From positions 1 through 39,678 of IMG/VR virus record IMGVR_UViG_3300034682_000226: a stretch of 39,678 nt of DNA, one strand, 5' to 3'. Below the pieces are notes generated by a model. The model did no database searches. It was not told where the DNA came from and was given only the letters and a program-made list of their open reading frames with translations. Shown here one piece after another: positions 2,988 through 39,598 of this stretch (its first letter is position 1; every line of letters starts with the position of its first letter). This stretch comes from a virus. The translations under genes and the position numbers were made by a program.

Positions 2988-3305
2988 TCAGATAAAGACC
3001 GGAGTATAGGGAGCAAGTAATAGGTCAACTCCCATTGGAAGGGGTTTTAACGCATCAGAACTTACTGATTCTCTGTTTTCATACCAGTGAGAAATCAGCA
3101 ACATGGCGGCTAACTTGATGTCCTCATCATATGCCTGGCTACCATCGACAAGCCCATCTGCTGGATCAATGAGCCTCTTGCCGATACGGTGTTCAATGTG
3201 GCGCTCAGCCGCCTTGATGTAGATAGCAATGAGTGAATCCTCATCAGACTCTTGCATATCTAGCCGACACTGTCGTTTCACGTCATCAAGTGTGACCAGC
3301 GCCAT
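2988..3305 (-). CDS. Head-tail connector protein (HK97 gp6-like)
   Basis: The 105-residue protein starts 'MALVTLDDVKRQCRLD', the hallmark of gp6-like connectors (L-x-x-x-K-x-x-L-R-I/L-D), continues with an alpha-helical core 'YIKAAERHIEHRIGKRL' and ends with 'LPMGVDLLLAPY'. Twelve copies of such proteins form a ring under the portal. Family length is about 100 residues, so the gene is complete. Downstream lies a remnant of a similar C-terminus and then the lipoprotein moron. Confidence 0.85.
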   Translation of the reverse strand: MALVTLDDVKRQCRLDMQESDEDSLIAIYIKAAERHIEHRIGKRLIDPADGLVDGSQAYDEDIKLAAMLLISHWYENRESVSSDALKPLPMGVDLLLAPYTPVFI

Positions 3306-27732: not shown

Positions 27733-27775
27733 CTGAAAGTTCGAATGCGAAATGGGGACAATAGAGGACCGAGAG

Positions 27776-28483
27776 ATGGAACAGAGACAAGAAGAAATGG
27801 CTCGTTATGAGACCGATAAAATCGACTTCGCGCGAAGGCTCAATTTAGGTCTTGATGAGGCTGGCATTCCAAAACGTGGGCGCCCAGCTCGTCTGCAAGA
27901 ATTGCTCGCCAAGACACCATCCACTACTGATGTGCAAATCCCCTCACTCACAGCCATACGAAAGTGGTTAGAAGGTGACTCACTGCCGGAAGTAAAGCGG
28001 CTTGGTACCATCTCAAATATCATCGGAAAATCAGTGCAATGGCTACTGACCGGCACAGATACCAATGTTGACGAAGCGGGCTTGGCCTTGGGAAATGTAC
28101 CGCTGCTTTCATGGATTCAGGCCGGTGCATTCTGTAATAACGGCGATATTCCACTGCTCGAGCAGGTTGACGAGTTCATCCCTAGCCCAGTGAAGGTTGG
28201 AAAAAGGGCATATGCGGTAAGAGTCCGTGGCGACTCGATGGTGTCAATGAATGGGGGACGCAGTTACCCAGAAGGAACCATTTTGATTGTGGATCCAGAT
28301 GCAGTTCCTGAGCACAATAAAAGAGTCATCGCCAGGATTGGTGATGAAACGACATTCAAGGAACTGGTAAACGATGCGGGCCATTGGTTCTTAAGACCAC
28401 TTAACCCCCAATTCCGAATGATTGAAGTAACTGAAGATGTGGTGATCTGCGGGGTAGTTCGCTGTGCGGTACAGCTAGAATAA
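27776..28483 (+). CDS. CI-type lysogeny repressor, S24 self-cleaving
   Basis: From the ATG at 27776 the protein has 235 residues: an N-terminal DNA-binding domain (about 15-92, 'IPSLTAIRKWLEGDSLP' in the recognition region) and a C-terminal LexA/UmuD-like protease domain. Cleavage at Ala116-Gly117 ('IQAGAF'), catalytic Ser154 ('RGDSM') and Lys195 ('ETTFKEL') are all present, so RecA-dependent induction is expected. Upstream in-frame ATG (27752) and downstream ATG (27797) are alternatives. It is transcribed away from cro. Confidence 0.93.
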   Translation: MEQRQEEMARYETDKIDFARRLNLGLDEAGIPKRGRPARLQELLAKTPSTTDVQIPSLTAIRKWLEGDSLPEVKRLGTISNIIGKSVQWLLTGTDTNVDEAGLALGNVPLLSWIQAGAFCNNGDIPLLEQVDEFIPSPVKVGKRAYAVRVRGDSMVSMNGGRSYPEGTILIVDPDAVPEHNKRVIARIGDETTFKELVNDAGHWFLRPLNPQFRMIEVTEDVVICGVVRCAVQLE

Positions 28484-28520: not shown

Positions 28521-29915
28521 TTATGCTTCAACAAGTTCTCTGACTGTCTGTTCCTTTTTTAGCAAGCTGAGTGACTCGCGATACTCAGTAGCCTCTGCTT
28601 TCATTGTCCAGTGAATGTCACTCAAACCATGGCCTTCGATCGCCTTCTTAATATCGGCCAGCGGTAGGCGGAAAAACTCTTTTCGTGGATTCACTTTGTT
28701 GACAGAGTTTTCGTCGAATACTCGATGCAAATCTTTCTCCAAGGATGGAGCGTCATCACTGTAGATCATCGCATGAACATCAAAGTCGAATGGTACCGAA
28801 GCATCACTCAGCTCCTTAACACGATCGAGTGGCTCTAAGCGCCTGGTCATGCCAACCTTGAAGACATTCTCACCGAAGCTGCCAATGTTACTTATGACAT
28901 AGACATGCCCTCTGCGAGTCTGCTGAGCCATTGAGATCGCTCGCTGCCCTCTTGCCTCTGCCTCTTGAAGTTTCGCTTCAAGCTCAGCTAGTTGCGCCTC
29001 AAACAGCTGGCGCTGCTCATCATTTGCACCAGCCAGTTCTTGACGAGCCTTATCCAAGGCTTTTTGTAACATTCGCTCTTCTTTCTCAGCTTCTTTGATG
29101 GCTTTCTCCATCTCACGCTGGGCCCGTTCCTCCTCTCGCATCTGCTCACGGATCTGGCGCTGTTCCTCACGCTCTTGTTGCTGAAGCTCATATGTCGCGA
29201 CAGCCCATTTCAACTCTTCAAGCCGAGCATCGAGATAGGCCTGTTCAATTCGAGCGCCGCGAAATGACATGCCGTTGTGGTTCACCAAAGTAAAGGCGTC
29301 AATGATCTCTTGTTTTATCTTCCCATAGTTGTCGGACTTGACCCTGCTAAGAGCAGAATCGACCTTCCCATTGAAAGCATCGACAACAAAATGGATAGCA
29401 AATTGGCGGCGATATGAGCTGCTGTAATCGCAGTTACCAGCCTGGTTGCTCTGGATCAGGTGCCTAACATTTTTACGCGCAATCTTTAGTTGTTCACCGG
29501 CTTGCTTGTGACTATACGACTCAGCAAGATCATCCAAAACACTATGGTTCGGAATGATGTACTCATCACTGTAACCTTCAATTGCATTTTTCATTGCTTG
29601 AACAGTGCGCTCTAAAAACGCAGATAACTCTTTGTCTTTAGATATTTTTTCATTTATTTCAAGGCTGCTTTTCTCCAGCTCAGCCATGAGCTCAGCAACT
29701 TTATCTTCAGCATTAATAACCAGCATTCTGGTGTACCGCTCTGCATCTTCAATTGGCTGCAGCTTCGCCTCCATCTCGGCATTTCGCACTGCCATTTTCA
29801 CCAGTGCAGAGTCCGCATCCCTCAACTTTGCTTCAAGTAATCGCTTCCTTCGGTACAAGACAAATGCCAAGACATAGGGGCCGAAGAAAACCAGCAGCCC
29901 AATGAACACTTCCAT
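28521..29915 (-). CDS. Membrane-anchored DUF4041 + GIY-YIG (T5orf172) nuclease, SNIPE-like
   Basis: From the ATG at 29915 the product has 464 residues. Residues 2-21 (MEVFIGLLVFFGPYVLAFVL) form a membrane anchor, followed by a coiled coil to about 110. Next come a DUF4041 domain (about 120-235, including 'NHNGMSFRGARIEQAYLDAR'), a second Glu/Arg/Gln-rich coiled coil (about 235-325) and a T5orf172-type GIY-YIG domain from about 336: 'GHVYVISN', 'FKVGMTRR', 'SLEKDLHRVFD'. As I recall, membrane proteins with this combination (SNIPE) cut phage DNA during injection. Next to cI, it is a likely superinfection-exclusion gene. Confidence 0.8.
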   Translation of the reverse strand: MEVFIGLLVFFGPYVLAFVLYRRKRLLEAKLRDADSALVKMAVRNAEMEAKLQPIEDAERYTRMLVINAEDKVAELMAELEKSSLEINEKISKDKELSAFLERTVQAMKNAIEGYSDEYIIPNHSVLDDLAESYSHKQAGEQLKIARKNVRHLIQSNQAGNCDYSSSYRRQFAIHFVVDAFNGKVDSALSRVKSDNYGKIKQEIIDAFTLVNHNGMSFRGARIEQAYLDARLEELKWAVATYELQQQEREEQRQIREQMREEERAQREMEKAIKEAEKEERMLQKALDKARQELAGANDEQRQLFEAQLAELEAKLQEAEARGQRAISMAQQTRRGHVYVISNIGSFGENVFKVGMTRRLEPLDRVKELSDASVPFDFDVHAMIYSDDAPSLEKDLHRVFDENSVNKVNPRKEFFRLPLADIKKAIEGHGLSDIHWTMKAEATEYRESLSLLKKEQTVRELVEA

Positions 29916-30002
29916 AACCCACCCCAAGTAGTTGTTGTTAAACCGGATTCAAGCATCTCGTTTCAAGGTCTCATTCTAACCTCTTCGCTTGCTGCTAAAA
30001 AA

Positions 30003-30080
30003 CACCATAAAAAAACACACACCATAGATTGACGAAACGCACACCATTGGTTACTGTATTTCTCGTAGACACACACCAGT
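30003..30080 (+). repeat. CACACACCA repeats around the PL promoter
   Basis: CACCATA (30003), CACACACCATA (30015), CGCACACCATT (30039) and CACACACCAGT (30070) recur. Each fits the half-site ACAnnnACC of the inferred operator; only the 30037-30057 site has a good second half. They could be secondary CI/Cro sites (OL2, OL3) or a cooperative array. Confidence 0.5.
30029..30057 (+). promoter_or_regulatory. PL promoter with operator, driving the structured RNA
   Basis: TTGACG (30029-30034), a 17-nt spacer and TACTGT (30052-30057) form the promoter; the start should be near 30064. The operator ACG-CAC-ACC-ATT-GGT-TAC-TGT at 30037-30057 covers the same positions as the operator in PR, and the two promoters share the segment GGTTACTGT. 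This makes the structured RNA the first product of the CI-controlled plus-strand early operon. Confidence 0.72.
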
Positions 30081-30102
30081 TAAAAACAAGTGCGAAAGAC
30101 GA

Positions 30103-30156
30103 CCCCAGCCGGAGGGCCAGCGAAAACTGGCAGCGGTGGCAACAGACCGCTTGGGG
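30103..30156 (+). ncRNA. Three-way junction near the 5' end of the structured RNA
   Basis: CCCCA (30103-30107) pairs with TGGGG (30152-30156). Inside are two hairpins: GCCAG/CTGGC (30116-30120 / 30127-30131, loop CGAAAA) and GCGGT/ACCGC (30133-30137 / 30146-30150). The same CCCCAGCC ... AGCGGTG ... ACCGC ... TGGGG series recurs at 30803-30858 in the second half. Confidence 0.7.
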
Positions 30157-30171
30157 ATATAACACCGGCAA

Positions 30172-30321
30172 CCGGGCTGATTCACCTCCCCGCTCTCCCC
30201 TTGAAAGGTGTAATGCGTGCCGACAAGGGTGACCGGAAAACAAAATCAGTGACCGGCTGGCAGCTGGAAAGACAGCGAAGTTAAAGCGAACGAAGCGAGT
30301 GGCGGGTCTGACTCCCCAGCC
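30172..30321 (+). ncRNA. Structured segment between the junction and module A
   Basis: CCGGGCTGATT (30172-30182) can pair with AATCAGTGACCGG (30244-30256) with a two-base bulge and one G-T pair. The enclosed part can form a pseudoknot: CACCT/AGGTG (30183-30187 / 30206-30210) and CCCTTG/CAAGGG (30198-30203 / 30224-30229). Then GGCTGG (30255-30260) pairs with CCAGCC (30316-30321) around the hairpin GCTG-GAAAGA-CAGC (30263-30276). Two base pairs are shared between alternatives. Confidence 0.5.
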
Positions 30322-30326
30322 ACCCA

Positions 30327-30530
30327 CCCGGTGAAAGGCCGGGACACAACTGGGATTGCATTGCAGGTGAGCCTAGGCCCATGGGGTACCGCACGAGAGA
30401 CCCGGTGACCAGTGCAATCCGCAGTTGTGGTGAATAGGCAGGCTGATGCTACGCCCATCGGTGCGGCTCAAGTCCATGAGGGGCTTCCTCGAAAACAGAG
30501 CATGCCGGGATCAGCACCGGCCACCACAAC
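30327..30530 (+). ncRNA. RNA module A (before the tRNA)
   Basis: Hairpin CCCGG/CCGGG (30327-30331 / 30339-30343, loop TGAAAGG), one A, then CACAACTG (30345-30352) pairing with CAGTTGTG (30422-30429). Stacked directly on it is GGATTGCA (30353-30360) with TGCAATCC (30413-30420), leaving only G30421 bulged: 16 pairs in all. Alternatively GTTGTGGTG (30424-30432) pairs with CACCACAAC (30522-30530). Between them is a hairpin GCCGG/CCGGC (30504-30508 / 30517-30521) whose loop GATCAGC can pair with GCTGAT (30442-30447). Confidence 0.75.
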
Positions 30531-30596
30531 AAACCGTCAGTTGGGCAAGTCGAAAGACCTCAGCGCTGACTCCGGATAGGGTAACCGGAAAACGCA

Positions 30597-30660
30597 ATCC
30601 TCTAGGCACATGTGGCCTGATAAAACGAGGCAGGTATAGAGCCCTGCGGGCCTAGAGGAT
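30597..30660 (+). ncRNA. Long hairpin just before the tRNA
   Basis: ATCCTCTAGGC (30597-30607) and GCCTAGAGGAT (30650-30660) form an uninterrupted 11-bp helix that ends six nt before the tRNA. Inside, GCAGG/CCTGC (30630-30634 / 30643-30647) makes a further hairpin. It would set the 5' flank for RNase P cleavage. Confidence 0.75.
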
Positions 30661-30666
30661 GAAACA

Positions 30667-30741
30667 CGGAGATTCGGCAAGCGGTATGCCACCTCATTTG
30701 GGATGAGGGATTCACAGGTTCGATCCCTGTATCTCCGACCA
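30667..30741 (+). tRNA. tRNA-Pro (anticodon TGG)
   Basis: A complete cloverleaf: acceptor CGGAGAT/ATCTCCG, D-stem GGCA/TGCC with a seven-base loop containing GG, anticodon stem CCTCA/TGAGG with loop TTTGGGA, variable loop GATTC, T-stem ACAGG/CCTGT with loop TTCGATC, discriminator A and encoded CCA. The anticodon is TGG at 30699-30701; the C1-G72 pair, A73 and G37 are proline identity features. It differs strongly from typical host tRNA-Pro in the stems, so it is a phage-type gene. It lies inside the structured RNA. Confidence 0.95.
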
Positions 30742-30746
30742 ATTAT

Positions 30747-30858
30747 TGGCGTCGTAACTGGGTAACCAGGCCGTCAATGGGAGTGTAACTACGACTCAAG
30801 CTCCCCAGCCATGGCAGTAACAGCGGTGAGGACACCGACCGCGGTAGGCCCCATGGGG
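30747..30858 (+). ncRNA. Structured segment after the tRNA with junction copy
   Basis: GTCGTA (30751-30756) pairs with TACGAC (30790-30795), enclosing the hairpin CTGG-GTAA-CCAG (30758-30769) with a GNRA loop. TGGC/GCCA (30747-30750 / 30808-30811) can extend it. Then CCCCA (30803-30807) pairs with TGGGG (30854-30858) around CGGTG-AGGA-CACCG (30824-30837), repeating the junction at 30103-30156. Confidence 0.65.
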
Positions 30859-30875
30859 TACGAAAACCCATCCGC

Positions 30876-31172
30876 TCTGGCGATGTAAAAGGCCAGAACA
30901 CAACTGCATTGGCACTGCGCGACCAGCCGCGAAACTGGCACGGAGTGTATAGGCGAAAGGAAGCTTAAGTACCGAGGCTGAACCAGCACCGGCCCAGTGG
31001 GTTAGCTTGTTGGGGATGCCCTGATAAATATCGGAGCCTGCTTCTCAGTCAGTGCCAATGACAGTTGTGGTGAAACTCCTGCTGAGGTTGGGATTGACCC
31101 GTAATAAACCTCTCTAATGGTCTTAAAGACACAGGGAAAAAATAGAGGACGTTGTTGCCCCTCCACCACAGC
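30876..31172 (+). ncRNA. RNA module B (after the tRNA)
   Basis: Hairpin TCTGG/CCAGA (30876-30880 / 30893-30897), one A, then CACAACTG (30899-30906) pairing with CAGTTGTG (31062-31069). CATTGGCACTG (30907-30917) pairs with CAGTGCCAATG (31050-31060), leaving A31061 bulged: 19 pairs. The order matches module A, but the flanking helices have different sequence and keep pairing. GTTGTGGTG (31064-31072) can instead pair with CACCACAGC (31164-31172, one G-T pair). The interior holds CCAG/CTGG (30923-30926 / 30935-30938) and, after the helix, GAGGTT/AACCTC (31084-31089 / 31107-31112) around GGG/CCC. Confidence 0.75.
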
Positions 31173-31191
31173 CAACCGATTTGACCACCCC

Positions 31192-31203
31192 AAGGAGGTG
31201 ATC
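31192..31203 (+). promoter_or_regulatory. Twelve-base perfect complement to the 16S rRNA 3' end
   Basis: AAGGAGGTGATC is the exact complement of the last bases of bacterial 16S rRNA (GATCACCTCCTT). No ATG, GTG or TTG with usual spacing and an open frame follows. It lies in a possible hairpin with CACC/GGTG arms. It may bind 30S subunits without starting a protein, or serve a very short ORF. Confidence 0.55.
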
Positions 31204-31212
31204 ATATCTCCC

Positions 31213-31361
31213 ACCGCAGGGTTACGCGGTCGCCTGGTCCCGCTGTGAAGCGCCACCCAGGCCCTCGCCGAGAGGCGACAGTTTCGAAATGGTAGGTCTG
31301 CCCGTGAGGGCGCACTGGTGCCGACAACAAGAACGGCTGACTCGCTGTGAAGCGCTCAGCC
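31213..31361 (+). ncRNA. Hairpin cluster at the 3' end, four with GNRA loops
   Basis: In order: ACCGC/GCGGT (31213-31217 / 31226-31230); GCCTGG/CCAGGC (31232-31237 / 31257-31262) with inner CGCT-GTGA-AGCG (31241-31252); TCGCC-GAGA-GGCGA (31265-31278); GCCC-GTGA-GGGC (31300-31311); GGCTGA/TCAGCC (31335-31340 / 31356-31361) with inner CGCT-GTGA-AGCG (31343-31354). The second and last hairpins are copies with an identical tip but different, still paired, outer stems. Confidence 0.75.
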
Positions 31362-31379
31362 TCACCACAGGTGCAACGC

Positions 31380-31580
31380 ATGTGGTTACTACTCCTGATG
31401 TTGATCTGGCTGCTCGGGCTGGCTGCTGACCAACAAGCAACACCAACCGTCACCTCCATGGCGGCGCCATCAAGGGCTGTTCCACCGCTCACGATGGCAC
31501 AGGGCTCCAGGCCCTGCCAAACCAGCCCGACATGTTCTCTCCTGGCCCCGGCAACGGGGCCCTTATCCCACAAGCGATAG
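31380..31580 (+). CDS. Possible small secreted protein
   Basis: The ATG at 31380 has AGGTG seven nt upstream. The 66-residue product begins MWLLLLMLIWLLGLAADQQ, a signal-like segment, followed by a Thr/Pro/Ala/Ser-rich part. It is the first possible gene after the structured RNA. The N-terminus is persuasive, the rest is low-complexity, so a chance frame is not excluded. Confidence 0.4.
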   Translation: MWLLLLMLIWLLGLAADQQATPTVTSMAAPSRAVPPLTMAQGSRPCQTSPTCSLLAPATGPLSHKR

Positions 31581-31659
31581 CGGCCCAACAGCGGGTCACG
31601 GCCTCCTATTGCCTGTCGCTTGTGTGATGAGACCAATTTCAGAGATAGCGGAGGCAGCC

Positions 31660-31882
31660 ATGCACCCAAGCGAGTTCATTGCCAAGCACATCAAGGCAAC
31701 GCTGGAGAAAGAGCAATTCCCCCCCCCATGCGATCTCGCTGGGCGTGGCTGAAGCCAAGCGCTATTTCGACCGGACACCCAGCTTTGCCAAAGGAAAGGT
31801 GTTCGATGAGTGCCTCAAGGCGGCCCGCGCAGTAGCAAGGATCGCGAAGAAGGCGGAATCGGCCAAGCAGGCCAAGCCCTGA
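31660..31882 (+). pseudogene. Small gene with a frameshift at a nine-C run
   Basis: GGAGG lies 5 nt before the ATG at 31660. The frame reads M-H-P-S-E-F-I-A-K-H-I-K-A-T-L-E-K-E-Q-F and then meets a run of nine C (31719-31727), after which it stops within 12 codons. Removing one C would join it to the next frame, '...HAISLGVAEAKRYFDRTPSFAKGKVF...', giving about 73 residues that end 'SAKQAKP'. Either this is a sequencing error in the C run, a disabled gene, or a phase-variable tract. Confidence 0.6.
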
Positions 31883-39511: not shown

Positions 39512-39560
39512 TGGTGCCCGAGGCCGGAATCGAACCGGCACGCCTCGAAAAGCGAGGGAT
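39512..39560 (-). other. Candidate attachment site at the tRNA-Leu 3' end
   Basis: The 3' half of the tRNA gene (T-arm, acceptor and CCA) faces the integrase. Phage integrases commonly use the 3' part of tRNA genes as the crossover site, and the phage restores the sequence. The exact core cannot be set because the opposite prophage end is outside the window. Confidence 0.6.
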
Positions 39561-39598
39561 TTTAAATCCCTTGTGTCTACCGATTTCACCACTCGGGC
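39512..39598 (-). tRNA. leuZ: tRNA-Leu (anticodon TAA)
   Basis: The 87-nt gene has acceptor GCCCGAG/CTCGGGC, anticodon stem AGGGA/TCCCT with loop TTTAAAA (anticodon TAA), a long class II variable arm with CTCG/CGAG, T-arm GCCGG/CCGGC with loop TTCGATT, and encoded ACCA. It corresponds to leuZ of the glyW-cysT-leuZ operon. The name is by analogy with E. coli. It is host DNA and intact. Confidence 0.95.

Follow-up and report, generated by a model that had tools for sequence, protein, structure and literature searches.

A large structured RNA with an embedded proline tRNA in an Aeromonas prophage and its relation to a widespread phage RNA module

The gene-poor locus and its RNA

The window analyzed here, a stretch of viral DNA of 39,678 nt, contains a region at 30064-31370 in which all open reading frames are short and no gene is conserved, which raises the question of what this region encodes. 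We found that this 1.3-kb stretch of an Aeromonas prophage encodes a large structured RNA in which a proline tRNA is embedded. In an alignment of homologues (alignment A3), single-base indels were present inside the short reading frames, which ruled out a conserved protein across the region. ARAGORN and the Rfam tRNA model (55.7 bits) both revealed a tRNA-Pro(TGG) with a complete cloverleaf and its anticodon, and the preliminary description was thus right to place a tRNA-Pro(UGG) amid a gene-free region. The RNA region is located 3' of an S24 repressor gene (27752-28483, plus strand) and 5' of the Dam operon, the same arrangement as in phage mEp390.

The boundaries of the RNA were approached from both ends (Table 1). 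A promoter-like sequence with a 17-nt spacer was read by eye at 30029-30057; scanning the window for consensus promoters and terminators gave nothing useful on the plus strand and did not pick up this box. A TTGACC box is kept at the same place in homologues whose upstream DNA is unrelated, and an RNA start near 30064 is loosely compatible with the putative promoter. Expression upon induction would be expected from the position beside the S24 repressor and from this box. At the 3' end, the sequence is conserved up to about 31400.

Three side observations concern the neighborhood. A DUF4041/T5orf172 protein is encoded on the minus strand between the repressor and the RNA (28521-29927), in a cargo position. 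A tRNA-Leu(TAA) at the window end (39512-39598, minus strand) is possibly an attachment site, and a C run in a small downstream reading frame (31719-31728), which is shorter in plasmid L001, is a possible frameshift.

Compared with dinucleotide shuffles, the folding of 30084-30740 and 30741-31400 gave z-scores of -3.5 and -2.2, respectively, which lend the structure modest support; comparative covariation is decisive. Two pairs of perfect 11-bp arms were found (30597-30607/30650-30660 and 30907-30917/31050-31060), together with the 9-bp arms GTTGTGGTG/CACCACAAC. The 11-bp helices described at first were therefore reproduced, while the 16- and 19-bp helices turned out to be the same arms with small interruptions. 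Rfam covariance models revealed no GOLLD, ROOL or OLE in the window at E ≤ 10, as the failure to match the first two by eye had suggested, and all Rfam families except tRNA were rejected for the whole region. Proteo-phage-1 (RF03044), which is likewise of phage origin, has a hairpin similar to that at 30103-30173; this candidate scored 26.7 bits against a cutoff of 42, was absent from the homologues at E ≤ 0.5 and was dropped.

Table 1. Features of the RNA region (positions in the window).
Feature	Position	Strand	Basis and remarks
Putative early promoter	-35 TTGACG 30029-30034; -10 TACTGT 30052-30057	+	Read by eye; weak; amid CACACCA repeats (possible operators)
Conserved 5' domain	30089-30326	+	80-99% identity in Aeromonas G385, G234, G376 and G756, viral L166 and mph(A) plasmids
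Capping hairpin immediately 5' of strand a	30327-30343	+	Alignment A3; other phages have similar hairpins ahead of their strand a
Strand a, 5' side of variable arm	30344-30363	+	A3 helix with compensatory pairs; arm statistic
Variable arm, module 1	30364-30409	+	Exchanged between otherwise near-identical prophages
Strand b, end pairs with a or c	30410-30432	+	Complementarity
Stem 1 and kissing loop 1 (GGCTGA)	30435-30451	+	Covarying 5-bp stem; one G bulged in window
Variable linker, module 1	30452-30503	+	Comparison of modules
Stem 2 (GCCGG/CCGGC) and kissing loop 2 (GATCAGCA)	30504-30521	+	Module comparison
Strand c CACCACAAC, closes core with GTTGTGGTG	30522-30530	+	Covariation helix 1
Hairpin, 11-bp perfect stem	30597-30660	+	Complementarity
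tRNA-Pro(UGG), CCA encoded	30667-30741	+	ARAGORN, Rfam
Module 2	30876-31169	+	R1 14.4 bits, E 0.018; core degenerate
Module 2 pieces	Capping hairpin 30876-30897; strand a 30898-30917; arm; strand b 31050-31072; strand c 31164-31169	+	
Conserved 3' domain	31164-31400	+	88-99% identity in homologues

A recurrent module with paired loops

The segment 30410-30536 was found to be one copy of a module of approximately 120 nt that is present in more than 150 viral loci. In the 5'-to-3' direction, the module contains a capping hairpin, strand a, a variable arm, strand b ending in GGUG, the trinucleotide AAU, a 5-bp stem with the loop GGCUGA, a variable linker, a GCCGG hairpin with the loop GAUCAGCA or AGAUCAGCA, and CACC with strand c. 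The loops of the two hairpins pair with each other (GCUGA/UCAGC), and a GGUG/CACC helix closes the core. The window core scored 73.7 bits (E 2.6e-18) against the model R1, a score that is partly due to construction because this core is among the 60 sequences behind R1, and it contains the GCUGA/UCAGC kissing pair.

Among these 60 diverse sequences, 95.2% of the cells pair and double-sided changes occur in 10 of the 23 pairs, counts that are inflated by the relatedness of the sequences. The covariation score was 0.252, compared with 0.076 ± 0.006 in shuffles, none of the 500 reaching it, and at most 0.09 when the pairing was slid; covarying helices had been predicted for the homologues. The covariation backs the closing helix, stem 1 and the kissing pair, with most of it arising from the first two, and stem 2, in which no compensatory change was present in the 60 sequences, rests on conservation. 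Some compensatory changes among homologues were also observed in the 5' domain (A3). The homologous regions thus neither share a conserved coding gene nor vary freely without compensatory changes.

Of 171 modules, 91% have a complete (5/5) kissing pair and 99% have one of at least 4/5. In the 17 modules with another loop 1, the module's own loop 2 pairs 5/5 in 6 and at least 4/5 in 15, compared with 0 and 8 for the canonical loop 2, and the covarying pairs GUCGA/UCGAC, GAUGA/UCAUC and GGUGA/UCACC were found. Loop complementarity exceeded that in a permutation test (4.31 versus 3.58 ± 0.09; 0/2000). In 126 of 144 modules, moreover, the end of strand b is complementary to a as well as to c, by at least 2 nt. 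Strands a and c are near-identical, and both complementary to b, in most modules (30344-30350, 30424-30432 and 30522-30530 in the window); this repeated overlap might be a switch, a mobile junction or a means of joining copies.

Stem 1 contained 25 G-U but 2 A-C combinations. Intrinsic terminators lie within 200 nt downstream of 38 of 158 modules on the sense strand, compared with 5 in the antisense control, and each of the 26 tRNAs close to modules in the viral loci is on the strand of its module; near modules, tRNAs are 18-fold denser than elsewhere in the loci. Because of this wobble bias, the sense terminators and the same-strand tRNAs, the plus strand is the RNA strand, as had been proposed from the tRNA. 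Statistics on gene-free spans were uninformative because spurious reading frames cross the modules.

The module was traced from an island of 30-35 nt (about 30499-30534) that matches gene-poor regions of lytic Klebsiella, Edwardsiella and Alcaligenes phages; in a blastn search of the window RNA against phage records, direct homology was limited to the tRNA and this island. Scans with three sets of patterns derived from the island hit viral contigs at 19, 114 and at least 120 stretches, respectively, of which the last, from a free-loop scan, is the unbiased set, as the other two included loop letters. The scans also revealed 13 bacterial genomes, including Massilia, Nitrosomonas, Pantoea and Pseudoxanthomonas as well as Verrucomicrobiota and Magnetococcales MAGs; overall, the bacterial carriers range from Aeromonas to a Verrucomicrobiota MAG. 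Named carriers are P1, HK620, mEp390, phiEt88, Bas77, Klebsiella phages 6991 and Bullseye, Alcaligenes phage CASP1 and a Qin-like prophage, lytic phages of Klebsiella, Escherichia and Alcaligenes being among the carriers. With one enterobacterial copy as the query, blastn gave matches in 321 phage records, and the module was present in 9 of 398 Pseudomonadota genomes and in 6 of 99 in one Enterobacteriaceae sample, frequencies that are lower bounds owing to strict filters. Searching the literature for the core sequence and for an RNA of this kind in P1 yielded nothing relevant. The module family is widespread and largely unnamed, with no Rfam family or name except for short offshoots.

Exchange of modules and possible roles of the RNA

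Comparison of close relatives revealed how the RNA is assembled. G385, one of the genomes assigned to Aeromonas from their match to the Aeromonas-like prophage and to plasmid-borne copies, is 99% identical to the window over 30089-30433 and 31164-31400; in between, 59 nt replace the 730 nt of the window that hold the core, the tRNA and module 2. In G756 (locus L282), an intact core of 72.4 bits occupies the position of module 2. The similarity of viral L166 to the window switches inside the arm and the core and then back, and genome G060 has a tRNA-Pro directly 3' of strand c. Modules, arms and tRNAs are therefore exchanged between fixed ends: modules are swapped as cassettes between the 5' and 3' domains, and arms are variable, sometimes with tRNAs (whole ones in L189 and L212) or tRNA remnants (truncated ones in L197 and L183). 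The arm helices are real, with energies of -19.3 kcal/mol with their own strands versus -14.1 kcal/mol when swapped. The original proposal of a new or very divergent family was accurate with respect to a large structured phage RNA around a tRNA; a single fixed RNA gave way to a mosaic of swappable modules, rarity did not hold, and short branches are already known (STnc100, RF02076; PasD; and, via P1 homology, the region around DicF).

Separately, the mph(A)-mrx-mphR(A) macrolide-resistance units of plasmids contain DNA about 90% identical to the prophage RNA (L001 6001-6962; L002 66-5212; window 30098-31854), and pHS30-1 has prophage CII and the S24 repressor on the other side of the mph(A) unit too. 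The widespread mph(A) unit therefore seems to originate in an Aeromonas-type prophage, its place there having been between the repressor and the RNA.

The explanation that we consider best, with slightly less than even confidence, is that host RNases cut a mosaic early transcript, which yields a tRNA along with stable pieces, structured or regulatory, acting in trans. The RNA would be the first 1.3 kb of the prophage early (pL-like) transcript, with fixed 5' and 3' domains holding exchangeable modules. Each module would be a stable unit, its core of two kissing hairpins being closed by the GGUG/CACC helix, and would display a variable arm, with tRNA genes in or beside the arms. Once the repressor is lifted, the transcript would be made and then processed by host enzymes, with RNase P acting at the tRNA, RNase III on the long arms and RNase E in the linkers. 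The products would be tRNA-Pro and nuclease-resistant structured pieces, working in trans as regulatory RNAs or decoys. Support comes from what the comparisons show, namely the module, its covariation, the strand, the swapping, the tRNA association and the phage-wide spread. Processing of the window RNA is proposed by analogy with DicF, and an sRNA nature of the pieces by analogy with PasD and STnc100 in the literature. Against this explanation, the dicF similarity is to the P1 RNA and not to the window 5' domain, most modules have no tRNA within 1 kb, and a mere precursor does not obviously need a conserved kissing pair or the pairing of b with a and c.

Those last two features would suit an RNA-only scaffold or cage like GOLLD and ROOL, in which separate molecules would touch one another through the kissing loops and the shared a/c strands, with tRNAs or other cargo on the arms. 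The habitat is the same, in phages and next to or around tRNAs (PMC12286853), a context feature that is not diagnostic, and the loops and the complementarity of b make pairing between copies possible. However, the kissing pair is equally compatible with intramolecular pairing, the RNA matches GOLLD, ROOL and OLE in neither sequence nor structure, and many copies are single modules of about 200 nt, and the number of modules varies, a poor fit to a cage of fixed stoichiometry. We consider a scaffold unlikely.

The contrast between a fixed core and freely varying arms and linkers would also be expected of a decoy or sponge that uses tRNAs and tRNA-like arms to titrate tRNA enzymes or tRNA-targeting defences, or whose arms base-pair with host sRNAs; fast arm turnover would then reflect an arms race. 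T-arm-like hairpins are 44-64-fold enriched over background in arms and linkers, and truncated tRNA-like arms are present as well, although the hairpins occur in only 16 of 158 modules and no candidate target emerged. We regard this role as rather improbable. Slightly less probable again is a cis-acting leader for processive antitermination (put-like) or protection of a long downstream operon. Modules do stand at operon starts, early-left in the window and mEp390 and as a late leader in HK620 and the Qin-like prophage; however, adjoining genes are on the opposite strand in Klebsiella phage 6991 and Bas77, terminators follow 38 of 158 modules, and the P1 array is not at a known operon start. 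A DNA element for recombination or replication, to which the clear cassette-like swapping and long inverted repeats might point, is very improbable given the GU:AC ratio of 25:2, the sense-strand terminators, the strand-matched tRNAs and contexts that share no common recombinase.

Beyond the processing explanation, we offer a broader proposal that we regard as rather doubtful: an RNA class across Pseudomonadota phages, including P1, might self-associate into multi-module scaffolds, joined by the conserved kissing loops and by a/c strands that can stand in for each other. Such scaffolds would present tRNAs and rapidly evolving arms as a counter to host defences, and several classical prophage sRNAs (DicF, STnc100 and PasD) might later have descended from this class. 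The module is common, in P1 and in E. coli prophages studied for decades, yet has no Rfam family. Giant tRNA-associated phage RNAs, STnc100/PasD and the dicF region would be joined in one testable scheme, which offers a source for new prophage sRNAs and lets the question of function for giant tRNA-bearing phage RNAs be asked in P1 and E. coli K-12, both of which are easily subjected to deletion.

Comparison with known phage and prophage RNAs

Like the window RNA, GOLLD (RF02032) and ROOL are large structured non-coding phage RNAs near or around tRNAs. In contrast to them, the window RNA matches no covariance model of these families and contains repeated small modules that vary in number.

The links to STnc100 and to the dicF region run via P1 and Bullseye and not directly via the window, in which STnc100 (RF02076; gathering cutoff 47 bits) gave no match at E ≤ 10 and DicF (RF00039; cutoff 48 bits) none either. 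P1 (L226 1973-3730) has three modules around tRNA-Asn/Thr in a gene-poor stretch between dmt and tciA; an annotated coding sequence inside the module RNA (3041-3214) is probably spurious. Its module 3 scored 33.9 bits to STnc100, below the cutoff, and 28.9 bits to R1. Phage Bullseye combines an R1 module (86.1 bits) with an above-cutoff STnc100 (53.4 bits) in one gene-poor region with tRNAs, so that STnc100 and kissing-loop module types co-occur in one RNA region in both phages. In this lytic Klebsiella phage, about 2.3 kb (L305 2600-4920) annotated as a row of tiny hypothetical proteins is probably one large structured RNA.

STnc100 and PasD share with the window module a GGUGAAU start, a hairpin, a variable middle, a CCGG-capped hairpin and a CACC end, a plan indicating a distant relation via P1 module 3. 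R1 found 3 of 12 STnc100 loci, weakly (17-23 bits). Unlike the window module, STnc100 has a shorter loop 2, AGGCA, and no GCUGA/UCAGC kissing pair, and it is for this reason graded as a likely, distant branch of the family; PasD, going by the literature, looks like a small branch. The homology of PasD and STnc100, as well as tRNAs and STnc100 near Pas sRNAs, has already been reported, and PasD was detected by Hfq RIL-seq (2026 preprint, Storz group, PMC13192938); that report treats the PasD/STnc100 relation without a wider module family. Both are short sRNAs sited in prophage late regions, whereas the window holds a 1.3-kb mosaic with a tRNA. The sRNA isrK (RF01394, 74.6 bits) was also observed in a related prophage (L158 49-124, minus strand).

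In E. coli K-12, the stretch before dicF (the dicBF leader) is 78% identical to the P1 RNA over 98 nt (E 2e-14), and a module of 24.8 bits, which a long stem closes, lies directly between dicF and dicB; this module looks like a small branch of the family. DicF is processed by RNase III/E (PMC10448788), and the dicF-region fragment would, by position, span the P1-like stretch. In L015, L023 and L125, modules are followed closely on the 3' side by DicF-like matches of 24.5 bits, which are suggestive only. Elsewhere in Qin, a second, weak module (23.8 bits; L306 13056-13181, minus strand; K-12 about 1641055-1641180) precedes essQ in the late region and is followed by an intrinsic terminator; it is a candidate unannotated sRNA in MG1655. 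The dicBF operon of the Qin prophage resembles the window in having a non-coding stretch in an early-left operon under the prophage repressor, with dicF flanked by a P1-like domain on its 5' side and by a module on its 3' side, but unlike the window RNA it is short and carries no tRNA.
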